Part shown: positions 16,777-46,920 of the stretch, one piece after another | Layout of the letters: every line of letters starts with the position of its first letter | Position numbering within the stretch: the first letter of the stretch is position 1 | From: Candidatus Fermentithermobacillaceae bacterium | Lineage (GTDB): Bacteria > Bacillota > Sulfobacillia > Fermentithermobacillales > Fermentithermobacillaceae | Reading direction: 5' to 3' | DNA: 64,000 bases | Assembly: GCA_018052475.1 (NCBI GenBank) | Contig: JAGPNG010000002.1 | Location: 62,001-126,000 of the forward strand | The notes under the pieces: generated by a model | Databases searched by the model: none | What the model was told of the DNA's origin: nothing | What the model saw: the letters and a program-made list of their open reading frames with translations, nothing else | Made by a program: the position numbers and the translations under genes

Positions 16777-18585
16777 TTGTTTCGAAGAATCCTAGCGGCA
16801 GACATTGGCAGTACCACCACAAAAACCGTGCTTTTCGAAAGAAAAGACGACAAGTGGGCACTTGTGGGAAAGACTTCGGTTCCTACAACTGTTGAAGCTC
16901 CCCATCTTGACGTAATGATCGGACTTAAGAGTGCGCTATCTAGGCTGCAAGAGCGCACGGGTGTCCATATTCTAGAAGATTCAAGGCTTCTTATCGGCAT
17001 GGAGGGGGACGCAGGTGTAGACGCTTTGGTAGGCACATCGAGCGCCGGCGGAGGACTGCAGATGGTTGTGGCAGGCTTGGTCAAAGAGCTCACGGCAGAA
17101 TCTGCACACAGGGCAGCTCTTGGAGCAGGCGCTATTGTGGCCGATGTCATTGCGATCGATGATTCGAGAAGCACAATTGAGAAAATAGAGACCGTGAAAC
17201 GGATCAGACCTGACATGATCCTAATAACCGGGGGCACCGACGGTGGGAACATCTCGGAAGTGGCGTCTATTGCGGAAATCGTCGCCATGGGAACGCCGGA
17301 GCCTAGATTTGGCAAGGATTTCAAGCTGCCTGTTATCTTTGCGGGAAATGTTCAGGCGCGTCCCATCATAGAGAGGATTTTTGAAAAGCAGTCCGAGCGT
17401 ATGTACGTTGTCTATACAGACAACATACGACCTGTGCTTGAAAAAGAGGTGCTTGAGCCTGCAAGGAGAGCCATTCACGAATTGTTTCTGGAACATGTGA
17501 TGATGCATGCTCCGGGCTATGCTACGTTAGTTGCGTGGACACAAGGTAATGTGAAGCCCACACCTGTGGCAGTAGGAGATGCGCTAACGTACGTGAGCGA
17601 AATAGCTCAAGGTGACGTCTTGGCTGTTGACGTCGGAGGAGCGACCACCGACGTATTTTCCGTTATCGACGGTGAGTTTTATAGAACGGTATCCGCCAAC
17701 CTGGGCATGTCATATAGCATGGGAAATGTACTGGGTGAAGCAGGTATAGATGCGATCATGAGGTGGTTGCCTGGGAAATGGGATGACGACATTTTGAGGA
17801 ACTGGAATTTCAACAAAATGATAAGGCCGACCACATTACCTCAGACGCTAGAAGAACTCATGCTGGAGCAAGTAGTTTGCAAAGAAGTTCTGCGGCTCTC
17901 AATGAATCACCATAGGATGCTCATTCGCGAGCTCAAAGGAGTACAGCGGCGCCGCACTATCGGTGATATGTTTTACCAGACGCCCGGTGGGGAAACCCGG
18001 GTCGACATGATGAAAGTAAAAGCTATTGTAGGCACAGGCGGCGCTCTTTCCTATGCTCCTCGACGAAATCAGGCCGCTATGATACTCGTAGACGGCTTTC
18101 AACCGGAAGGCATAACCGATCTTTATGTCGACAGCCAGTTCTTGTTGCCGCACATGGGCGCCCTTATGGATATTGACAAAGAAATAGCTGCCCAGATGAT
18201 GATGACTGAATGCTTAATCCCTTTGGGTACTTGTATAGCGCCCATGGGACCGCGCGTCAGTCCAGGTAGTGTCATGGCGCAAGTCAAAATCCGAGGACGC
18301 ACCTATGAAGTGGTTGGAGGAGAGATCACGGTAATCCCTATCGACGATGCGGATGCAACAACCATAGAAGTTATTCCCGGAAGGAACTTTGATGTAGGAG
18401 CAGGTCCGGGTAAGCCCATGACGAAAGAGGCGGTAGGCGGCGTTACAGGCGTTATTCTTGACGGACGAGCTCGCCCCATAGTGTTTCCTGCGGCCAATGG
18501 CTACCAGTATGGAGCTGTAGCACGCTGGTATAGCGAGTTCGATGCTTACCCTGCTGAATTCCTAGATGAATTGACGAGGAGGTGA
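16777..18585 (+). CDS. MutL/GlmL-like ASKHA-fold ATPase (mutase-associated)
   Basis: 602 residues from TTG 16777, behind AAAGGAGGTTG. The opening ADIGSTTTKTVLFE is a phosphate-1 loop and VLAVDVGGATTDVF at about 286-299 a phosphate-2 loop, so this is an actin/Hsp70-like ATPase. DMILITGGTDGGN, GNVQARP and MAQVKIRGRTYEVVGGEI fit the MutL/GlmL family, whose genes usually sit between subunits of adenosylcobalamin-dependent amino-acid mutases and are thought to help repair or chaperone them. No mutase subunit is seen here. The gene overlaps the start region of the next one, so the two are co-translated. Role: possibly a reactivating ATPase for a remote enzyme. Confidence 0.8.
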   Translation: MFRRILAADIGSTTTKTVLFERKDDKWALVGKTSVPTTVEAPHLDVMIGLKSALSRLQERTGVHILEDSRLLIGMEGDAGVDALVGTSSAGGGLQMVVAGLVKELTAESAHRAALGAGAIVADVIAIDDSRSTIEKIETVKRIRPDMILITGGTDGGNISEVASIAEIVAMGTPEPRFGKDFKLPVIFAGNVQARPIIERIFEKQSERMYVVYTDNIRPVLEKEVLEPARRAIHELFLEHVMMHAPGYATLVAWTQGNVKPTPVAVGDALTYVSEIAQGDVLAVDVGGATTDVFSVIDGEFYRTVSANLGMSYSMGNVLGEAGIDAIMRWLPGKWDDDILRNWNFNKMIRPTTLPQTLEELMLEQVVCKEVLRLSMNHHRMLIRELKGVQRRRTIGDMFYQTPGGETRVDMMKVKAIVGTGGALSYAPRRNQAAMILVDGFQPEGITDLYVDSQFLLPHMGALMDIDKEIAAQMMMTECLIPLGTCIAPMGPRVSPGSVMAQVKIRGRTYEVVGGEITVIPIDDADATTIEVIPGRNFDVGAGPGKPMTKEAVGGVTGVILDGRARPIVFPAANGYQYGAVARWYSEFDAYPAEFLDELTRR

Positions 18586-18590
18586 GGCTA

Positions 18591-20015
18591 GTGGCTTTGA
18601 TGTCTACTCTTAAAATACTTGATATAGCAAGAATTGAGAAAGAAAGGAAAATCCCTACACCCGGTGAGGTTATGGTCAAAGTAGGTGATGTTTCGGCCCC
18701 TGACACTATCATTGCCAAGACTGAATTCATAAGAGGAAACCCGTACGTAATTGATCTCAAATCAGAGCTCAAACGTCCGTTAGATATGGATTTGGTCGAT
18801 AGCGTGTTGCTTAAAAAAGAAGGAGATCATGTACAGACAGGTGAGATAGTCGCTAGGTACCAGAAAGATTTTTGGTCTCCTGTCATAGAGGTGAAATCGC
18901 CTTGTGACGGGTTTATAGAACATATCTCAAGATTGAACGGTCAGATAGTCATTCGTGAAGATCCTCGGTCGGCAAGGCCATTGACCATTGTTGCCGCAGC
19001 GTCGCGGTTGTCTGTTCCGGCGCGGCTTCTTCGGATGTTTACAACCGTGAAGGAAGGCGAGTTTGTCAATGAGGGGCAGATAATCGCCGCTGCACCCGGA
19101 GTTGCGTCAGTAGATTTTGTATATGCGCCTATGAGCGGCGTAGTTGAGAAGATCTGCACCCTTACAGGTACTATTACTATTGCTAGGGTGATCAAGCACA
19201 TAGAGGTGCTGGCGCATATCCCGGGAGTAGTTAAGAGCATTGTACCCGACTATGGGGCAGTTGTGGAAACTGTCGGCGCATATATCCAAGGTGTATTTGG
19301 CATAGGGTACGAAGCTTATGGGCAGCTCTTGTTGCTAAGCGATGGGCCAAGGGAACCCATTTTGAGCGAGAGAATGGACAAAGAAGACGTAAAGGGTAAG
19401 GTCTTGGTGGGTGGTTCTTACGCAAGTGATGAAGTGGTTAGAAAAGCAAAGGAGAAAGGAGCTGCAGGTCTCATTATCGGCGGGGTAGACCAAAAGAGTC
19501 TGGTTTCTGTCCTCGGTAAAGAAATGTCTGCCGGTATCACAGGCTACGAAGAGTCAGATTTTACAATCATCATGCTAGAGGGGTTTGGAGAACTTCCCAT
19601 GAACGAACAGGCTTGGGATATCCTATCAAGCCGTGAAGGCAAGATTGCTTGCATAAACGGTACAACTCAGATAAGGGCAGGCGTAATAAGGCCGGAGATC
19701 GTGATCCCTGCTGACGATTTTGAAAAGTTGCTTAGCGACCCGTCTATCGACCAAATTCCTGTCGTGTCAGCATCTCAGTACGTCGAGTCCTCATCACATG
19801 TCATGTTTGCAGAAATCGAAAAAGGTGGGAGAGTAAGGTGCATAAGGCCCCCGTATTTCGGGATGTGGGGCTTCGTAGAAGACATAAGCCCAATGCCTGA
19901 ACAGGTTGAATCTGAGATTACTACAGAAGTAGCCGTGGTTAGGTTAGACGACGGGCGCCTTGTGAAAGTGCCTCAGGCTAATCTCGAGGTTTTTCCTAAT
20001 AGATCTCGGGAGTGA
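18591..20015 (+). CDS. uncharacterised barrel-sandwich (lipoyl-like) protein with KOW-like end
   Basis: About 474 residues; GTG 18591 with AGGAGGTGAG seven bases upstream is the best start. Three lipoyl/biotinyl-like hairpin segments can be read: GDHVQTGEIVARY...SPCDGFIEHI, EGEFVNEGQIIAA...APMSGVVEKI and HIPGVVKSIVPDYGAVVET. The last resembles RnfC-type sandwich domains. A Rossmann-like part follows (KVLVGGSYASDEVV...GAAGLIIGGVD). The end (GMWGFVEDI...VVRLDDGRLVKVPQANLEVF) resembles a KOW/NusG-like beta barrel. No conserved biotinylation Lys motif (MKM) is visible. It probably forms one unit with the upstream ATPase. Function unknown. Confidence 0.7.
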   Translation: MALMSTLKILDIARIEKERKIPTPGEVMVKVGDVSAPDTIIAKTEFIRGNPYVIDLKSELKRPLDMDLVDSVLLKKEGDHVQTGEIVARYQKDFWSPVIEVKSPCDGFIEHISRLNGQIVIREDPRSARPLTIVAAASRLSVPARLLRMFTTVKEGEFVNEGQIIAAAPGVASVDFVYAPMSGVVEKICTLTGTITIARVIKHIEVLAHIPGVVKSIVPDYGAVVETVGAYIQGVFGIGYEAYGQLLLLSDGPREPILSERMDKEDVKGKVLVGGSYASDEVVRKAKEKGAAGLIIGGVDQKSLVSVLGKEMSAGITGYEESDFTIIMLEGFGELPMNEQAWDILSSREGKIACINGTTQIRAGVIRPEIVIPADDFEKLLSDPSIDQIPVVSASQYVESSSHVMFAEIEKGGRVRCIRPPYFGMWGFVEDISPMPEQVESEITTEVAVVRLDDGRLVKVPQANLEVFPNRSRE

Positions 20016-30349: not shown

Positions 30350-30496
30350 AGGTAATAGCAAACAAGGTCATGCGGAAATTTCATCACACATTTGTACGCA
30401 GCAAAGTCGCACCAAATTCCATCAATCAGCATCACCTTAGATAACGTTGTGCTAAACAGGGAATGCATGACTTATTTTCAAAAAGGAGGTGAAAAC

Positions 30497-31324
30497 ATGA
30501 CTAATTTGTTGATTTTGGCTGCAGAAGCGCCGGCTAGAAAATGGGGCATCTTTGTACCGGATGACAGCACGATATTCGGTCTCTTCTTCGGGATCTTTAT
30601 GCTGATCTTGGTGTACGTCATGATCCAACGTGCCAGAGCCGGGTTGCCGATTCCCGAGATCCGCCGGATCCCCGGAATGGAGGCTTTTGAAGAGGCTGTA
30701 GGCAGAGCGACTGAGATGGGCAGGCCGGTTCACATCACCAACTACTCAGCTGACGTTGGAGACTATGACACTTGGGCATTCTGGTCATATCTGGCACACG
30801 TGGCAAAACTGTGTGCTTCGTATGACACGAGGATAATCAACACCAACGCCGAGTACCTGACCATGACAGTTAACGAAGAGATCATTAAGCAGGCTTATCT
30901 TGAAGCCGGAAGGCCAGACGCTTTCAACCCGGACGATGTAAGGTTCGTTTCGCCCTGGCAGTTTGGCTACACCATGGGTGTCGCTGGAATAATTGCCCGA
31001 GAAAAACCGGCAGCGAACTTCCTAACGGGCTATTTCTATGCAGAAGCACTCATATTGGCTGAAGCGGGTGCGTTGGTAGGAGCGATTCAGGTTGCTGCAA
31101 GTGCTTCAACCGCCCAGCTGCCTTTCTTCATTGCCGCTTGCGACTATACCATGATTGCTGAGGAATTCTATGCCGGAGCAGCCGCTCTATCCAAGGAACC
31201 TGTCATCTACGGTTCGGTGGTTGCCCAGGACATAGGGCGTGTCGTCCTTACTGCTCTCATTATCGTAGGCGCAATCATGAACACTTTCGGTAGCGATGCG
31301 ATCATAAGGCTGACCAAGTTCTAG
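30497..31324 (+). CDS. cassette 1 gene A: DUF6754-like membrane-associated protein
   Basis: 275 residues, ATG 30497 with AAAAGGAGGTGA upstream. One N-terminal membrane helix (about 25-45) precedes a large domain with EEAVGRATEMGRPVH at about 66-80, AREKPAANF at about 171-179, QLPFFIAACDYTMIAEEFYAGAAALS at about 208-233 and GSVVAQDIG, then a hydrophobic C-terminal helix (about 246-264). It resembles proteins annotated DUF6754; that name is from memory. The motifs are repeated in the paralogue at 43298. No known catalytic motif is visible. First gene of a four-gene run; its partners are at 31358, 32112 and 33048. Confidence 0.72.
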   Translation: MTNLLILAAEAPARKWGIFVPDDSTIFGLFFGIFMLILVYVMIQRARAGLPIPEIRRIPGMEAFEEAVGRATEMGRPVHITNYSADVGDYDTWAFWSYLAHVAKLCASYDTRIINTNAEYLTMTVNEEIIKQAYLEAGRPDAFNPDDVRFVSPWQFGYTMGVAGIIAREKPAANFLTGYFYAEALILAEAGALVGAIQVAASASTAQLPFFIAACDYTMIAEEFYAGAAALSKEPVIYGSVVAQDIGRVVLTALIIVGAIMNTFGSDAIIRLTKF

Positions 31325-31357: not shown

Positions 31358-32014
31358 TTGAAAAGGGAAGTCCCAATGGTATTGACCCTCATATTCGCCA
31401 TCATCCGATGCGGGTTTGAGTTGATTGAGCCTATGCTTTCCTGGGAATTAGCACCGGGCCAAACAGTATTCTCAAGGTTGTCCTTTTCAATCACGTTCAT
31501 GACCGTTATGGGCCTCTTAATGGGACTCATTAACCTTACGCGACTCCACGTGAACACAATTAGGCGCAAACGGGAAAACTGGGTGTATAGTATATGGCTG
31601 CTTTTTGTACTGTACGGTTACGCTATCGTAGGACTCGGATGGGGGCCTAATGGCACCACTTTCAACTGGATCTATGAAGCGGTGATCGTTCCTCTTGACT
31701 CAACCATGTTCTCGATGCTGGCATTTTTCATCGCGTCTGCGGCATATAGAGCCTTTAGAGCAAGAAATATCGAAGCCAGTATATTGCTGGTGGTCGCGTT
31801 CATAGTGATGCTTGGCAACGTATCCATAGGAGAAATGATATGGAGTTCCTCGGGTTGGTTAGGAGGATTCAAAGGTATCAAGGACTGGATATTGGCGGTA
31901 CCCAACGTCGCACATGCCCGAGCGCTTGCAATAGGAATATTCCTCGGGGCGTATGCGGCTACCTTGCGTGTGTTTCTGGGACTGGACAAGAAATATCTTG
32001 GCGGTACTGACTAG
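31358..32014 (+). CDS. cassette 1 gene B: polytopic membrane protein
   Basis: 218 residues, TTG 31358 with AAGGAGGTGAAG upstream. Six or so hydrophobic segments. The diagnostic pieces, shared with the paralogue at 44094, are the start MKREVPMVLT, the cytosolic-loop motif FFIASAAYRAFRARN, MLGNVSIGEMIWS and the end GLDKKYLG. I do not recognise a named family. It probably forms a membrane complex with the products of genes A, C and D. Confidence 0.65.
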   Translation: MKREVPMVLTLIFAIIRCGFELIEPMLSWELAPGQTVFSRLSFSITFMTVMGLLMGLINLTRLHVNTIRRKRENWVYSIWLLFVLYGYAIVGLGWGPNGTTFNWIYEAVIVPLDSTMFSMLAFFIASAAYRAFRARNIEASILLVVAFIVMLGNVSIGEMIWSSSGWLGGFKGIKDWILAVPNVAHARALAIGIFLGAYAATLRVFLGLDKKYLGGTD

Positions 32015-32111: not shown

Positions 32112-32963
32112 GTGACATTTTGGGAGAAGTTGGCAGTTATTGACCCAAGATGGATTTTTCTTGGAATGGCTGTTCTCCTTACTTTCCCCGTGCTGAGCCC
32201 CTTAGGTCTGGCCATTACAATTGACCAGGAAACGACAGTACCTATCTACAACTGGATTGAGAATCTTAATCCGGGAGATATAGTGTTTGCCGACGTGTCT
32301 TTCAGCGGAGGTTCCGAAGGAGAGCTGGGCCCCCAGCTTCAGGCCTGGTTTAGGCATTGCCTGCAAAAGGGCGTCAAAGTCGTATGGGTTGCTCAGTGGA
32401 ACACAGGTGAACGGTTGGGGTACAACATGTGCGTGGAGGTTACTGAGAAGCTCGAAGAAGAGGGCATTCACACTGAGTATGGAGTAGATTGGGTGTACGT
32501 AGGCTGGAAAGCCGGCGGCACTACCATGTGGCGCAATATGCAGATCGATTTCTGGGATGCATGCGCAGGAACCGACATGCTCGGGAATTCGTTCGATGAC
32601 CTTCCGCTGATGGAAAGAGTGCGGAAGTGGGATAAAGAGACATGCAAGGGCATTATGCTGTTTACTGCAGGTTCCCCGGGAGTTCCTACCTACACAACGT
32701 ATTTCCATGATTACGACATCTATCTTGGAGACGTTGCGGTACAGGTTCCAGGGAACATGAACTTGCTCAGGTCGGGGCAGATAAAGGGAATCCTTTGCGG
32801 TCTGCCGGGAGCAGCTCAGTATGAGATCCTTTTGGAGAAACCAGGCAGGGCAGTAAAACTCATGGATGCTCAGTCACTGGGTCACCTTTGGATTATGGTA
32901 CTTGTTATCTTGGGGAACATTGGTTTCTATGTGAGAAGGAAAAGCGGCACACCGGTAGATTGA
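32112..32963 (+). CDS. cassette 1 gene C: protein with terminal membrane anchors and alpha/beta domain
   Basis: 283 residues, GTG 32112 with AGGGAGGGAAATG upstream (the ATG just before runs into a stop). A membrane helix lies at about 15-34 and another at about 258-276, with a roughly 220-residue alpha/beta domain between. That domain has Rossmann-like strands (DIVFADVSFSGG, GVKVVWVAQWNTG, GIMLFTAGSPGVPTY, LLRSGQIKGILCGLPGAAQYE) and ends DAQSLGHL before the last helix. The paralogue at 44736 keeps SPG, SGTPGVP, QSGQIVGMI, GAAGYE and DAQSISHL. Four Cys occur here that the paralogue mostly lacks. Function unknown; it may bind a small ligand. Confidence 0.65.
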   Translation: MTFWEKLAVIDPRWIFLGMAVLLTFPVLSPLGLAITIDQETTVPIYNWIENLNPGDIVFADVSFSGGSEGELGPQLQAWFRHCLQKGVKVVWVAQWNTGERLGYNMCVEVTEKLEEEGIHTEYGVDWVYVGWKAGGTTMWRNMQIDFWDACAGTDMLGNSFDDLPLMERVRKWDKETCKGIMLFTAGSPGVPTYTTYFHDYDIYLGDVAVQVPGNMNLLRSGQIKGILCGLPGAAQYEILLEKPGRAVKLMDAQSLGHLWIMVLVILGNIGFYVRRKSGTPVD

Positions 32964-33047: not shown

Positions 33048-33653
33048 TTGACAACTGCTCAAGTCTGGGTTGCCGCACTTTGTACCCTGGCAGTTTACAG
33101 TTATCTATATAAAGAAAATCCGGCGTACAGAATCGCTGAATATACGCTCGTGGCTCTGTACACATCTTACTCAATAACCCTGGACTTTCATGAATACTTG
33201 ATACCCTACGCCCAGCGGTATGCTATAGAAGAAGGTCAATGGTATTTCTGGGTGATGGGCGCGCTAGGCTTGCTCCTTTATTTCCGGTATGCTCCGCCAA
33301 AGTATAACTGGCTTGCCAGGTATCCGATTTCTATCGCTGTTGGATGGGGTTTGGGATACAACCTGATTAGACTCCCCAGGCCGGTTATGGTCCAGGTGAG
33401 GGATGCAATGAGACCTTTGAATACAGTGAATAACGTGCTGTTCTTTGTATTCTTCCTGTGCATTCTGTTCTACTTCTTCTTTACGACAGGCAAGGAGTCT
33501 AAGTTCATACAGGGTTCCGGCCGAATCGGCAGGTACATCATGATGGTTGGATTTGGATGTGCATTTGGAAATACGGTTCAAGGGCGTATTTCTTTGTTCC
33601 TAAACAGGCTGTCTTTCTTGTTGATAGATTGGCTTGGCATACAGATCTGGTAA
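33048..33653 (+). CDS. cassette 1 gene D: polytopic membrane protein
   Basis: 201 residues, TTG 33048 with GGGAGGTGA upstream. About five membrane spans. Shared with the paralogue at 45569 are the opening YSYLYKENPAYRIAEYTLV, LLLYFRY, RYPISIAVGWGLGYNL, MRPLNTVNNVLFF and GRYIMMVGFGCAFGNTVQGRISLFLNRL. Unknown family. It ends cassette 1 and is followed by a strong terminator, so A-D form one transcript. Confidence 0.65.
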   Translation: MTTAQVWVAALCTLAVYSYLYKENPAYRIAEYTLVALYTSYSITLDFHEYLIPYAQRYAIEEGQWYFWVMGALGLLLYFRYAPPKYNWLARYPISIAVGWGLGYNLIRLPRPVMVQVRDAMRPLNTVNNVLFFVFFLCILFYFFFTTGKESKFIQGSGRIGRYIMMVGFGCAFGNTVQGRISLFLNRLSFLLIDWLGIQIW

Positions 33654-41715: not shown

Positions 41716-41786
41716 ATTTAGAGAATACAAGAAAAAACTCTAAAGGCTAATTTCGACGAGGGTTACTTGGTTTTGGAGGCATGTTA

Positions 41787-42434
41787 GTGACAGCGATTGG
41801 TATAATGGGTGGCACTCTCGATCCGATTCACTATGGACATCTCAGAGCCGCTGAAGAGGTATTGCAAGGGTTTGGGCTTAGACGAGTGGTGTTTGTACCT
41901 TCAGGTAGGCCTCCGCATAAGTCCCCTGCTGAAGTGACTTCTGCCGAACACAGATATATGATGGCAGAACTTGCTACTGCCGACAATCCGAATTTTGAGG
42001 TGTCCAGAATTGAGATCGATAGAGAAGGGCCTTCTTACACGATAGATACCCTCAGAGAGTTCAGGAGCGCTCTTGGCAGTGACACAAAAATCTATTTCAT
42101 AACAGGGCTTGACGCAATAGTTGATGTTTATACTTGGAATGAATTTGAACATCTATTTGAACTTGCCGAATTCATCGCGGTGTCGAGACCCGGATACAGT
42201 GTCGAAACCTTGGGTACTCTTGAAAAGGTGATTGGGCCCGAGCGCTTTAGCAAAATACACCACTTTCCTATCACGCTATTGGCCATTGCATCTCGTGAGA
42301 TAAGGCAGCGAGTCAAAGAGGGCAGGTCAATCCGGTATCTGGTGCCAGAATCAGTGCGTCTATATGTTGAAAAAGGCGGGCTTTACACCGAAAGCACAAG
42401 CAAGAAGTTTTGGCTTCCCGGTTGTCTAGATTGA
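41787..42434 (+). CDS. nadD: nicotinate-nucleotide adenylyltransferase
   Basis: 215 residues. GTG 41787 has GGAGG seven bases upstream; ATG 41781 is only one base from it and less likely. GIMGGTLDPIHYGHL carries the HxGH nucleotide-binding motif, VPSGRPPHK and the late ASREIRQRVKEG (ISSTxIR motif) complete the family pattern. It adenylates nicotinate mononucleotide in NAD synthesis. In Firmicutes it typically lies next to obg and yqeK, here separated from yqeK by the RRM gene and cassette 2. Confidence 0.95.
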   Translation: MTAIGIMGGTLDPIHYGHLRAAEEVLQGFGLRRVVFVPSGRPPHKSPAEVTSAEHRYMMAELATADNPNFEVSRIEIDREGPSYTIDTLREFRSALGSDTKIYFITGLDAIVDVYTWNEFEHLFELAEFIAVSRPGYSVETLGTLEKVIGPERFSKIHHFPITLLAIASREIRQRVKEGRSIRYLVPESVRLYVEKGGLYTESTSKKFWLPGCLD

Positions 42435-42571: not shown

Positions 42572-42826
42572 GTGAGGACTCTATATGTTGGAAATTTGCC
42601 ATGGGAGACGACCAGTGAGGAACTATCTGAAATGTTCAGCGCGTATGTAAATGTGCTAAACTGCCGTATTATCACGGATAGAGATACTGGGAGATCCAGA
42701 GGTTTTGGGTTCGTTGAAGTTAACGATGAAGACGTAGAAAAGGCCATAGAAGCGATCAATGGCGCTATGCTCGGTGGCCGACAGTTGGTAGTAAACGAAG
42801 CAAGACCGAGGCAGCCCAGGATGTAA
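42572..42826 (+). CDS. RRM-type RNA-binding protein
   Basis: 84 residues, GTG 42572 with GGGGAGGTG upstream. A single RNA recognition motif fills the protein: RNP2 is LYVGNLPW at about 4-11 and RNP1 is SRGFGFVEV at about 42-50. Such stand-alone RRM proteins occur in many bacteria and bind single-stranded RNA; targets are unknown. Monocistronic, followed by a terminator. Confidence 0.92.
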   Translation: MRTLYVGNLPWETTSEELSEMFSAYVNVLNCRIITDRDTGRSRGFGFVEVNDEDVEKAIEAINGAMLGGRQLVVNEARPRQPRM

Positions 42827-43173: not shown

Positions 43174-43297
43174 TATATACAATTGGCAGCTATGTAGGCG
43201 GTTGAGAAATGGCGAGGAGGTATCCGAGTCGCCATGGAAAGGAAACAAGAAAGCATTTTGATTAGCGATTCAGAGAATTATGGGAGGTGATTCTGCT

Positions 43298-44077
43298 TTG
43301 ACTTTAGTAAAAGGCAGAGTTTTTTCATTTTGGCTGCTCGTAATAGTTATTGGTTGCCTTTTGTACTCTATGTGGAAGGCGTCAAAGGGAGGCAATGTCT
43401 CGATAAGGAAGATTGCCGGACTTGACTCCATTGAAGAAGCGGTTGGCCGTGCGACAGAAATGGGCAGACCCGTTCATTACTGTCCGGGCCTAGGAGGAAT
43501 AGGTGCTGTTGAAGCACCGCAGACGTTTTCCGGATTGGCGATCTTGAGTCACATCGCAAGACTGACTGCCAGGTTCGATGTGCCGCTCATTGTCACCATA
43601 AGGCAGCCTGAGGTATTTCCTATGGCCGAAGAAACGGTTAGGCAAGCGTATCTAGAGGAAGGTAAAAGCGACAGATACGATCCTAACAACATACGATTCC
43701 TTTCATCTCAGCAGTTTGCCTACGCTGCCGCGCTTCTGGGGATTATGGCTAGGGAACGGCCTGCCGCGAACTTCATGATGGGAGCCTTCTGGGCTGAATC
43801 CCTCATGTTGGCCGAGGTAGGTTCTGAGGTTGGTGCGCTGCAGATTACAGGCACCGCCCAGCTATCTCAGGTACCTTTTTTCGTGGCCTCTTCGGATTAT
43901 ACGCTCATCGGAGAAGAGCTCTTTGCAGCAGCAGCGTATCTTTCTGGAGACAGGATGCAGCTCGGTTCCATCGTAGGTCAGGATATGGCAAAAGTGATAG
44001 TAGCAGTTCTAATAATCGCCGGTGTAGTGACTCGAAGTTTTGGCTCTAATTTCTTCGGGGAACTTCTGAGCAAGTGA
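43298..44077 (+). CDS. cassette 2 gene A: DUF6754-like membrane-associated protein
   Basis: 259 residues, TTG 43298 with GGGAGGTGA seven bases upstream. It has the same plan as the protein at 30497 but a shorter N-terminus: one membrane helix at about 9-25, then EEAVGRATEMGRPVH, the motif ARERPAANF, QVPFFVASSDYTLIGEELFAAAAYLS and GSIVGQDM, and a final hydrophobic helix (about 232-250). The two copies align over their whole length but differ in many positions, so the duplication is old or one copy was acquired separately. No enzymatic motif recognised. Confidence 0.72.
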   Translation: MTLVKGRVFSFWLLVIVIGCLLYSMWKASKGGNVSIRKIAGLDSIEEAVGRATEMGRPVHYCPGLGGIGAVEAPQTFSGLAILSHIARLTARFDVPLIVTIRQPEVFPMAEETVRQAYLEEGKSDRYDPNNIRFLSSQQFAYAAALLGIMARERPAANFMMGAFWAESLMLAEVGSEVGALQITGTAQLSQVPFFVASSDYTLIGEELFAAAAYLSGDRMQLGSIVGQDMAKVIVAVLIIAGVVTRSFGSNFFGELLSK

Positions 44078-44093
44078 AAGGGGCGATAAGTCT

Positions 44094-44720
44094 ATGAAAC
44101 GTGAATTACCCATGATACTGGCGTTTATCGTCGGTTTACTCATGATTGTATCATTCTTTTTCTCGTCTGAGCCTTTGAGCCAAGCGGCCAATACGGTGCA
44201 GAACTGGGGAGTGATAATTGCAGCGTTTGCCCTAGGATTGGCTTCAATCAATCTTATTCAAATTCACGCGAAAAGAATCGTGAAGGGCAAGGACTTGGAC
44301 TGGCTGTATTCAGGAGCACTCTTGTTTTCTATGATAGGCATAGCGATACTGGGGATCGCCAAAGGGCCTACCGACACAAACTACCAATTCTGGTTCGATG
44401 CTCTTTTTGTTCCGGGACAAGCTACGGTATACGCGATGACCGGATTTTTCATTGCCTCGGCTGCATATAGAGCATTTAGGATTAGGAACCTTGATTCGGC
44501 GATATTATTGGTATCGGCGGCCATCCTGATGCTTGGCAATGTGCCGATCGGCGAGACGATATGGTCACAGTTCCCCGTGATAGGTGAATGGCTGATGAAC
44601 ATTCCTAACCTGGCAGGGCAGCGGGGCATGCTCATAGGTGCCGGAATTGGCGGCATAGCCTCAGGCGTAAGGGTGCTTCTAGGGATCGAAAGAACGTACC
44701 TAGGCAGCTCAAGCTCATAA
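44094..44720 (+). CDS. cassette 2 gene B: polytopic membrane protein
   Basis: 208 residues, ATG 44094 after AAAGGGGCG, 17 bases from gene A. About six spans. It shares MKRELPMIL, FFIASAAYRAFRIRN, MLGNVPIGETIWS and GIERTYLG with the protein at 31358. The FFIASAAYRAFR loop is the best-conserved piece and may be the functional or interaction site. No known family. Confidence 0.66.
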   Translation: MKRELPMILAFIVGLLMIVSFFFSSEPLSQAANTVQNWGVIIAAFALGLASINLIQIHAKRIVKGKDLDWLYSGALLFSMIGIAILGIAKGPTDTNYQFWFDALFVPGQATVYAMTGFFIASAAYRAFRIRNLDSAILLVSAAILMLGNVPIGETIWSQFPVIGEWLMNIPNLAGQRGMLIGAGIGGIASGVRVLLGIERTYLGSSSS

Positions 44721-44735
44721 AAGGAGGGACAAACA

Positions 44736-45569
44736 TTGTTTGATAAGCTCGTACACATGGACCGCCGTGTTATATATGGAGTTGTTTTTCTGTCCCTCAC
44801 TATTCCCCTTATTTGGCCTATAGGTCTTGGAGTAGTAGTAGGGCCGGAGACGAAACAACTCTATGACATGGTTGAAGCATTACCCAGTGGCAGTGCGGTT
44901 ATAGTATCGATGGACACTTCTCCGGGCGGATATGGGGAGTTGTCTTCCGGCTCACTGGCGCTTTTGAACCATCTTGCGGAGAAAGGCATAAGAGTGATAG
45001 GCATGGGCTTTTTTGATACAGGCCCAAGTCTTTTGGAAACTGCGCTTGGTGGCTCCAAGTTTCGCGATAAGGAGTACGGGGTAGACTATGTAAACCTTGG
45101 GTACCTCGCCGGCGGAGAAACTGCCATGGCAAAGGTAGCCAAAGATATACTCGACAGCTTTCCAAGAGATTACAGAGGTAACGTTACCAGCGACCTTCCT
45201 GTTATGAAAGGCATAACTTCATGCGAGGATATAGCTCTTATAATTAGCATTTCGTCAGGAACTCCGGGAGTACCTGAGTGGATAAGGCAAGTTGGTGACC
45301 CTCTAGGTGTTCCCATTGCCACGGTTATCGTTGCGGTGAATGTGCCCAATATGACTCCTTATGTCCAGTCGGGGCAGATCGTTGGCATGATACCAAGCAT
45401 GAAGGGTGCGGCGGGGTATGAGAGCCTTATGGGTACTGCCGGACTCGGCACAAGGGGAATGGACGCTCAGTCAATTTCCCATCTGACCATACTTGGGTTG
45501 GTAGTGCTCGGTAACGTAGTATATCTTGCGACGAAAAATACTAAGCCCTCCGAAGGAGGTGCCCACTAA
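44736..45569 (+). CDS. cassette 2 gene C: protein with terminal membrane anchors and alpha/beta domain
   Basis: 277 residues, TTG 44736 with AAAAGGAGGG upstream. Membrane helices at about 12-32 and 248-265 flank an alpha/beta domain with SAVIVSMDTSPGGYGE, KGIRVIGMGFFDTG, DIALIISISSGTPGVPEW, PIATVIVAVNVPNM and YVQSGQIVGMIPSMKGAAGYE, ending DAQSISHL. The strand-loop pattern resembles a Rossmann or periplasmic-binding-like half, but no nucleotide motif (GxGxxG) is present. Its last base is the first base of gene D's start codon (TAATG), so they are translationally coupled. Confidence 0.66.
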   Translation: MFDKLVHMDRRVIYGVVFLSLTIPLIWPIGLGVVVGPETKQLYDMVEALPSGSAVIVSMDTSPGGYGELSSGSLALLNHLAEKGIRVIGMGFFDTGPSLLETALGGSKFRDKEYGVDYVNLGYLAGGETAMAKVAKDILDSFPRDYRGNVTSDLPVMKGITSCEDIALIISISSGTPGVPEWIRQVGDPLGVPIATVIVAVNVPNMTPYVQSGQIVGMIPSMKGAAGYESLMGTAGLGTRGMDAQSISHLTILGLVVLGNVVYLATKNTKPSEGGAH

Positions 45570-46174
45570 TGCGGATAAGTGGCGATCTTGGAACGTGGAT
45601 TGCGGCTATAGCTACCATAGGTATTATGAGTTTTGTCTTCAAAGACAACCCGCTTTACAGAATTGTTGAAAATGTCTACGTAGGGGTGTCTGCAGGGCAT
45701 GCTCTTGTATTAGGTTGGATAAACATAAGGGACCAAGGCATAACTCCTTTGACTTCTGAGGGTGAGTGGAGTGTCATAATCCCTTTGTTGCTAGGATTGC
45801 TTCTCTATACCAGATACTTCAAGGATATAGCATGGCTTTCCAGATTCCCCCTGTCCATCTTGGTAGGTATAGGAACAGGTTTAGCCATTAGGGGGACAAT
45901 CGGATCCCAGATAGTCAACCAAGTGAAAAGCACTGTACTTCCGCTAAACAACATCAATAATGCCATTATCGTCTTTGGAACGCTTGGAGTCCTTTCTTAC
46001 TTCTACTTCTCCAAAGAACACAGAGGAGTTCTCAAGCATGTTTCAACTTTTGGAAGATGCGTTATGATGGTGTCTTTTGGCGCAGCATTCGGAAGCACAG
46101 TTATGGGGCGTATGGCACTTCTTATCGACAGGCTGTACTTCCTTTACTCCAACTGGTTGGGTATCATTAGGTAA
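45569..46174 (+). CDS. cassette 2 gene D: polytopic membrane protein
   Basis: 201 residues, ATG 45569 with GAAGGAGGTG upstream. About five spans. It matches the protein at 33048 in FKDNPLYRIVENVYVG, LLLYTRY, RFPLSILVGIGTGLAI, VLPLNNINNAIIVF and GRCVMMVSFGAAFGSTVMGRMALLIDRL, and is exactly the same length. Unknown family. Last gene of cassette 2. Confidence 0.66.
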   Translation: MRISGDLGTWIAAIATIGIMSFVFKDNPLYRIVENVYVGVSAGHALVLGWINIRDQGITPLTSEGEWSVIIPLLLGLLLYTRYFKDIAWLSRFPLSILVGIGTGLAIRGTIGSQIVNQVKSTVLPLNNINNAIIVFGTLGVLSYFYFSKEHRGVLKHVSTFGRCVMMVSFGAAFGSTVMGRMALLIDRLYFLYSNWLGIIR

Positions 46175-46240: not shown

Positions 46241-46344
46241 TCATGCGTAAAGGAGACCAAGAGTCCCCTTATTGTGTTAGACTGTCATTGCAACCCGCGC
46301 TAAGGTTTTGATGTCTAATAATATAGGGGGATATCAGTCAGTTG

Positions 46345-46920
46345 ATGTATAGTCATATTCACGATTTTGTGAGAAATCGTATCGATGAAGAACGGTTTGT
46401 ACACAGTGAGAATACGGCTTGTTATGCATATGATATCGCACAGACTTATGGAGTTGATCCCGAAAGAGCTTATTTGTCAGGATTGCTTCATGACATCGCT
46501 AGAGATCTCTCACCCCAAGAGATTTTGCGAGTGGCATTAAAAGAAGGTATAATACCTAGAAAAGAAGAGCGCATTTGTCCTTTTTTATTGCACGGGAAGG
46601 TTGGGGCGCAGATAGTTAAAGAAGAAATCGGTCTTTTGGATGAGGGAGTCCTTAATGCAATTTCTTTTCATGTTACGGGAAGACCAAATTGGACCAGATT
46701 GGAACAGGTCCTTTATCTGGCTGATAAGGCTGAGCCGGAAAGAGTCTATCCTGGAGCGGATAGGATACGAGATCTGCTGAAAAGAGGAGATTTTGAGGGC
46801 GCCCTCTTTGAATGTCTGCGCGAAAATATTATATATGCAGCCAAGACTCAAGGCTGGATTGTGGACACTGACACGGTGGTGATATTTAATGGGATGGCGA
46901 CGAGATTCTCATCGAAGTAA
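46345..46920 (+). CDS. yqeK: HD-domain diadenosine tetraphosphate hydrolase YqeK
   Basis: 191 residues from ATG 46345 (the adjacent TTG 46342 is possible); AGGGGG lies upstream. HSENTACYAYDIA, GLLHDIARDLS and the later ISFHVTGRP and YLADKAEPER are the His/Asp metal ligands of the HD fold in YqeK. It splits Ap4A symmetrically to two ADP. It is conserved next to nadD, LCP and rsfS in Firmicutes. The 3' end overlaps the next gene by about 30 bases. Confidence 0.93.
   Translation: MYSHIHDFVRNRIDEERFVHSENTACYAYDIAQTYGVDPERAYLSGLLHDIARDLSPQEILRVALKEGIIPRKEERICPFLLHGKVGAQIVKEEIGLLDEGVLNAISFHVTGRPNWTRLEQVLYLADKAEPERVYPGADRIRDLLKRGDFEGALFECLRENIIYAAKTQGWIVDTDTVVIFNGMATRFSSK

Follow-up and report, generated by a model that had tools for sequence, protein, structure and literature searches.

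What a cassette of membrane-protein genes does, and why one genome should keep diverged versions of it, is the question raised by a stretch of 64,000 nucleotides from a Candidatus Fermentithermobacillaceae bacterium (assembly GCA_018052475.1, contig JAGPNG010000002.1, positions 62,001 to 126,000; hereafter the window). The window contains two copies of a four-gene cassette, A-B-C-D, lying 9.6 kb apart from the end of copy 1 to the start of copy 2 (Table 1). We tentatively propose that such cassettes form the ligand-specific membrane part of an ATPase-linked complex that has not been described before and is most likely an importer, and that the 11 ancient paralogues in this genome share a cytosolic or peripheral core encoded by four further genes, P, F, E and S. 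The architecture of this system is well supported, and beyond it we infer transport, energy coupling and substrate.

Two of eleven diverged cassettes

All eight open reading frames (ORFs) originally assigned to the two cassettes were present, and BLASTP paired them gene by gene, with identities of 42% over 248 amino acids (aa) for A (E 6e-70), 38% for B (6e-43), 33% for C (3e-40) and 37% for D (3e-35). Matches between non-corresponding genes all had E values of ~0.03 or worse, hence the similarity exceeds shared hydrophobicity, and this gene-specific pairing rules out resemblance by chance or hydrophobicity alone. The original prediction had pointed to the identical length of D, which is indeed 201 aa in both copies, but as D spans 196–212 aa over the 11 copies in the genome, this is a coincidence. 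The tighter packing of copy 2 was also borne out, with intergenic gaps of 16, 15 and −1 bp (C2 and D2 share base 45569) versus 33, 97 and 84 bp in copy 1. The N-terminal leader of A1, described as long, does exceed that of A2, but by only ~10–16 aa depending on the start codons chosen (for A1, the ATG at 30497 or a TTG further upstream, at 30392; for A2, the ATG at 43280 or a start further in, at 43298). C1 contains five Cys residues and C2 one, as noted before; the number ranges from 1 to 5 among the 11 C proteins, and a Cys-based metal or redox function was ruled out as a family trait of C, since full conservation of the five C1 positions is confined to the three genomes of this genus, which hold the closest copy-1 orthologs.

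The notion of a two-copy system did not survive examination of the source genome (1.40 Mb, 23 contigs, 92.6% complete), which encodes 11 A genes over the DUF6754 cut-off, 11 C genes and 11 complete A-B-C-D cassettes, with mean pairwise identities of 44% (A), 38% (B), 35% (C) and 39% (D). At least one A gene was found in 33 of the 61 genomes searched, and none in 14 control genomes. All 14 genomes of the family carry 5–15 copies of A, and a more distant member of the class (G028, with a listed contamination of 6%) has 27. On one contig of the source genome, two different cassettes are arranged tail to tail (L021:2442-8455), and this pair adjoins a glycyl-radical enzyme and a proline-racemase-like cluster, both named from their sequence. 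The A proteins of both copies belong to DUF6754 (PF20539), while no known family over its cut-off was found for B, C and D in a Pfam scan; a sub-threshold match of C2 to BPD_transp_1 (19.8 versus 26.4 bits) overlaps the alpha/beta domain and is probably due to chance.

Ancient paralogues that descend as units

A concatenated FastTree tree was made from 149 complete cassettes out of 165 detected (16 incomplete ones were dropped, and a few of those included occur in duplicate, once in a named locus and once in an unnamed one), and was rooted at the midpoint. Copies 1 and 2 fall on opposite sides of the first split within the clade of Bacillota cassettes (supports 0.999 and 0.997), a clade that also includes a sequence from an archaeal metagenome-assembled genome (MAG; L038). 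Separate trees for A, B, C and D from the same 149 cassettes grouped copy 1 with six orthologs (G001, G002, G003, G007, G014 and G015; support 0.93–0.999 over the four trees), and copy 2 with five (G001, its identical named record L028 from Ca. Fermentithermobacillaceae UBA3907, G002, G003 and G004; support 0.8–1.0), and in none of these eight cases did the clade have additional members. The smallest clade uniting both copies in the single-gene trees had 77–149 members, including 10–11 of the 11 copies of this genome. As both copies cluster with their respective orthologs from other genera, the duplication is ancient, as had been suggested, and a recent local duplication is ruled out by all four gene trees; the agreement between these trees also indicates that the cassettes descend as units.

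The position of copy 1, between purD, queT and a nusG-like gene on one side and NUDIX and radical SAM genes on the other, is kept in G001, G002 and G007; the G003 contig ends at A, and its downstream side agrees with the same neighbourhood. Copy 2 had been proposed to be an insertion between nadD and yqeK, and the comparison with relatives upheld this: these genes are separated by 3.85–3.93 kb in all three genomes of the genus, with copy 2 in between, versus 34–650 bp in the other 12 of the 15 genomes having both genes (yqeK had no match in 6 of the 21 genomes searched). In G003 and G004 the orthologs of copy 2 are located on another contig or 0.8 Mb away from nadD, and the cassette has therefore moved as a unit. 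The simplest reading is that its move to the nadD-yqeK site took place in the ancestor of this genus, beside a small ORF of 84 aa (42572-42826) which we take to encode an RNA recognition motif (RRM)-type RNA-binding protein, and which is located between nadD and the cassette. A tblastn search with A2 against 72,556 plasmids gave no matches that would indicate a plasmid origin.

One core for many cassettes

Scanning of genome contigs identified at least 573 relatives of A, and the named loci used here are the best 80 of these. They derive from MAGs labelled as Bacillota, Planctomycetota, Cloacimonadota, Eisenbacteria, Fermentibacteria, Zixibacteria, Latescibacteria, WOR-3 types, Marinimicrobia, Poribacteria and others; a single archaeal and a single proteobacterial label also occur, and may reflect errors in binning. 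Complete A-B-C-D in this order was detected in 72 of the 80 loci, nine of which contain two or three complete cassettes. In five of the remaining loci the rest of the cassette is cut off by the locus end or comes close to it (L051, L059, L061, L070 and L092), and in L072 the C gene is split.

Clustering of neighbouring genes and profile searches identified the core partners, of which at least one is located within 2 kb of an A-B-C-D gene in 34 of the 80 loci. F (~610 aa) is a MutL/GlmL-like ASKHA protein (PF13941), E (~375 or ~475 aa) is a barrel-sandwich hybrid whose tail is weakly NusG-like, S (~120 aa) has no Pfam family over the cut-off, and P has two transmembrane (TM) segments and a small domain without an NCBIfam match, which looks PH-like to us. 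The usual gene order is P-S-F-E-A-B-C-D in phyla of the Gram-negative type, and P-A-B-C-D-F-E-S-F-E in Bacillota with few cassettes. In the source genome the core P-F-E-S-F-E is found at one place (L163, contig C10) without A-B-C-D, and the additional F-E pair in the window (16777-20015), which is also present in relatives from the family, stands apart from it.

S was detected in 35 of the 61 genomes and in all 33 that have A. This co-occurrence has a Fisher p value of 3e-15, which is descriptive only, as the genomes are related (14 are from one family) and it is uncorrected for kinship. The two genomes with S and no A (G023 and G045) both have S at or near a contig end. S was present once in all 14 family genomes and at most twice anywhere, versus 1–27 copies of A (means of 1.15 and 6.1), and the two counts are uncorrelated (Spearman −0.22, p 0.23). 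From this excess of A (up to 27) over S (one or two) we conclude that many cassettes draw on one common core. E (36 of 61 genomes) and PF13941 overall (48 of 61) are less specific to A than S is, the latter because genuine GlmL-type proteins also belong to it; one of these, on contig C11, scores above the threshold of a GlmL-related ornithine family.

The mean column identity of F across phyla is 64%, versus 25–33% for A to D (from different sequence sets), and its motifs DxGSTTTK and DxGGATTD, presumably phosphate-binding, were invariant in 27 of 27 aligned F proteins. The F protein of the window belongs to the MutL family PF13941 of the ASKHA superfamily, yet scores below all three NCBIfam GlmL cut-offs (243.7 versus 475, 234 versus 600 and 187.9 versus 204.05 bits), and E is far below the NCBIfam cut-offs for rnfC and nqrA. 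Profiles of B, D, S and F had no convincing relative in the PDB, an absence that is uninformative, and for the E profile there was just a weak hit of the NusG type (E 0.0012), confined to the C-terminal third. No PADLOC family was matched by any of the eight proteins, and an identity as anti-phage defence system was discarded.

Differences between paralogues at the predicted ligand edges of A and C

Structural models were made for A and C with AlphaFold2, from 74 and 78 sequences respectively. In both models a six-strand alpha/beta domain is preceded and followed by a TM helix, with mean predicted local distance difference test (pLDDT) scores of 93.7 and 95.9. Homology of A and C was rejected, as hhalign gave a probability of 2.8%, and only their topology is similar. 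Foldseek found no known fold for either at E ≤ 0.001; the nearest solved folds in VIA-align were Sir2Af2 (Z 12.2, rmsd (root-mean-square deviation) 3.2, 141 residues aligned) and transhydrogenase dIII (Z 9.9, rmsd 3.4, 142 aligned) for A, and MT0777 (Z 9.5, rmsd 3.5, 141 aligned) for C, so that the modelled folds can be assigned to the Rossmann-like class only.

The two domains are likely to face opposite sides of the membrane, that of A being cytosolic and that of C outside, as positive charge follows TM1 in A (lysine plus arginine 3.28 after versus 1.53 before) and TM2 in C (3.65 versus 1.56). The same orientation is indicated by an N-terminal extension preceding TM1 of A in phyla of the Gram-negative type, which matches FN3/titin domains and often begins with a signal-like segment.

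To this we added a comparison of nine paralogue groups of 3–6 members, chosen by us from the tree (one group, g20, holds two genes of one genome), seeking sites fixed within groups and differing between them. With sites treated as independent and strand positions taken from the predicted models, the alpha/beta domain of A had 10 such sites, 7 of them at the C-terminal strand ends (expected 2.9, p 0.0075), and that of C had 15, 11 of them at these ends (expected 4.0, p 0.00013), with none at the opposite edge in either protein. Five threshold settings gave p values of 0.0018–0.0075 for A and 4.5e-5 to 3e-4 for C, and the universal sites of A and C were not concentrated at these strand ends. Rossmann-like folds hold their ligand at the C-terminal strand edge. 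Because the differences between paralogues gather at this predicted edge, we read the cassettes as ligand-specific, and each version seems tuned to a different ligand in these models. This gives indirect support to the earlier suggestion of different substrates for the two copies.

Gene neighbourhood

Core clusters in Bacillota adjoin peptidases of families S58, C26, M20 and M55, a pyridoxal phosphate (PLP) enzyme and DUF4438. The core of the source genome adjoins a PLP enzyme and C26-like and S58-like peptidases, identified by eye, and the counterparts of these neighbours in G004 matched Pfam families. DUF4438 was found in 29 of the 33 genomes with A versus 2 of the 28 without, and is located beside the core cluster in L171:12265-13134, L172:3831-4700, L175:3249-4112 and L176:1982-2926.

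A tally of 147 of 319 nearby genes (a random sample with a length limit, giving raw counts and not enrichment) had glycine-cleavage P proteins as the commonest family (9 of 147), mainly from loci of the Eisenbacteria/Fermentibacteria type. Two regions (L079:1276-13823 and L080:1587-13737) have gcvT, gcvH, gcvPA and gcvPB preceding P-S-F-E-A-B-C-D, and a lipoate-ligase-like gene after it. The stretches scanned for riboswitches contained two cobalamin riboswitches, located beside neighbouring cobalamin-transport-like genes, and a c-di-AMP riboswitch (L131:9424-9618) ~1.7 kb upstream of an A-B-C-D cassette on the same strand.

Table 1. Positions of both cassettes, the additional F-E pair and the genes flanking copy 2 (window coordinates)
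Feature	Description	Position	Strand	Evidence
A2	DUF6754 protein, copy 2; predicted cytosolic alpha/beta domain between two TM helices	43280..44077	+	Pfam PF20539 317.9 bits vs gathering cut-off 27; AlphaFold2 mean pLDDT 93.7
B2	Polytopic membrane protein, copy 2; 5-6 predicted TM	44094..44720	+	38% identity to B1; hydropathy; no Pfam family over cut-off
C2	Membrane protein, copy 2; predicted extracytoplasmic alpha/beta domain between two TM helices	44736..45569	+	33% identity to C1; AlphaFold2 mean pLDDT 95.9; positive-inside count
D2	Membrane protein, copy 2	45569..46174	+	37% identity to D1; no family match over cut-off
A1	DUF6754 protein, copy 1	30497..31324	+	Pfam PF20539 291 bits vs gathering cut-off 27
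B1	Polytopic membrane protein, copy 1	31358..32014	+	Similarity to B2; hydropathy
C1	Membrane-anchored alpha/beta protein, copy 1; 5 Cys	32112..32963	+	Similarity to C2; Cys count
D1	Membrane protein, copy 1	33048..33653	+	Similarity to D2
F	MutL/GlmL-like ASKHA ATPase of associated core, extra F-E pair	16777..18585	+	PF13941 391.5 bits vs gathering cut-off 27; below all three NCBIfam GlmL cut-offs; profile match
E (long form)	Barrel-sandwich-hybrid protein paired with F	18582..20015	+	Pfam RnfC_N 34.4 bits vs cut-off 25.6; profile match
nadD	Left flank of copy-2 insertion site	41781..42434	+	
yqeK-like	HD protein, right flank of copy-2 insertion site	46342..46920	+	

A possible ATPase-linked importer and its alternatives

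In the importer that we tentatively propose, C would bind a ligand outside the cell, specific to each cassette, which would then cross the membrane via B and D and be received inside by A, while the ASKHA ATPase F, acting through E together with S and P, would energise or reset the cycle; the paralogous cassettes would differ in substrate, with amino acids or peptides weakly favoured as substrate class. Several observations weigh against this proposal. No component passed the cut-off of any known transporter family, and we know of no ASKHA ATPase that drives transport. Ligand edges that vary between paralogues would also fit sensors or membrane enzymes, and the structural models cover A and C alone. 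Two loci (L060:9431-10564 and L093:3-992) have A without detectable B, C and D though downstream sequence remains, and the eight cassette regions examined in the source genome shared no constant partner gene. As to substrate, the peptidases next to the core are circumstantial clues, seen as single occurrences and not as an enrichment, and there was no riboswitch directly upstream of cassettes in the stretches scanned, for which reason riboswitches were rejected as substrate clues.

The cassettes may instead be transmembrane sensors, in which C would sense outside, A would relay the signal inside and the F/E core would be a shared output, the eleven paralogues then corresponding to eleven signals. 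Such a role is consistent with paralogue-specific residues on both sides of the membrane and with one shared core for many membrane modules, but the components scanned contain no kinase, cyclase, methyl-accepting or DNA-binding output domain, and a relay needs fewer than two polytopic subunits per module, making sensors unlikely. We consider it less likely again that A and C bind a nucleotide cofactor in a membrane enzyme complex performing redox or group-transfer chemistry across the membrane. The nearest solved folds are indeed NAD-binding types, but none of them reached the Foldseek threshold and Rossmann-like folds are generic, and varied edge residues in 11 paralogues suit varied ligands better than a single constant cofactor.

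The least likely of these alternatives would have F and E act as a chaperone or reactivase that assembles or repairs A-D, with transport or sensing by A-D being independent of the ATP cycle of F. GlmL is thought to be a chaperone or reactivase for glutamate mutase, F is related to the GlmL family, and one core could service many complexes; against this, many phyla have F, E and S clustered with the genes of the membrane module, and a B12 enzyme as constant neighbour was not seen in the loci read.

Relation to known systems

The Pfam entry for DUF6754 describes a single protein of unknown function, without the four-gene cassette or the core. F shares its ASKHA family and the phosphate-loop-like motifs with GlmL, the methylaspartate mutase accessory protein, but is longer (~610 versus ~460 aa), scores below every GlmL cut-off, and has E, S and a membrane module as partners. 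Energy-coupling factor (ECF) transporters have a shared energising module, and the logic of such a module combined with many paralogous substrate-specific membrane parts is alike, but the parts scanned here had no match to an ATP-binding cassette (ABC) ATPase, EcfT or an S-component. ABC importers work with a binding protein, and resemble the present system in having a ligand lobe outside the cytoplasm, a pair of membrane proteins and an ATPase in the cytosol; here, however, two TM helices belong to the same protein as the external lobe and F is ASKHA-like, with no match to ABC_tran in A-D, E, F and S (P was scanned in NCBIfam and PADLOC only). The long E of the window resembles RnfC and NqrA in its barrel-sandwich part only, the rnfC and nqrA cut-offs being far above it.

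Among the open papers in PubMed Central, none was found for DUF6754, PF20539 or DUF4438, and nothing relevant for MutL/GlmL or ASKHA in combination with a transporter. Since no paper there names DUF6754 or PF20539, B, C, D and S have no Pfam family over its cut-off, A is a DUF and there was no defence match in the parts scanned, the system is undescribed in the literature searched and unlike the transporter classes known to us, which does not in itself establish its function. It is doubtful, and clearly less probable than the role of ligand-specific modules proposed above, that it constitutes a new class of transporter, with an ASKHA ATPase instead of an ABC ATPase, alpha/beta ligand lobes on both faces of the membrane and one core for up to 27 interchangeable substrate-specific cassettes in many uncultured phyla.

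What stands is an eight-component membrane system with a gene order conserved across many phyla and no assigned function, to which the source genome devotes ~2% of its 1.4 Mb in eleven cassettes. The paralogue-specific edge positions of A and C make it testable which copy handles what. Should the system take up nutrients, it would account for the feeding of these uncultured anaerobes and would add an energy-coupling ATPase fold that is, as far as we know, new to transport.

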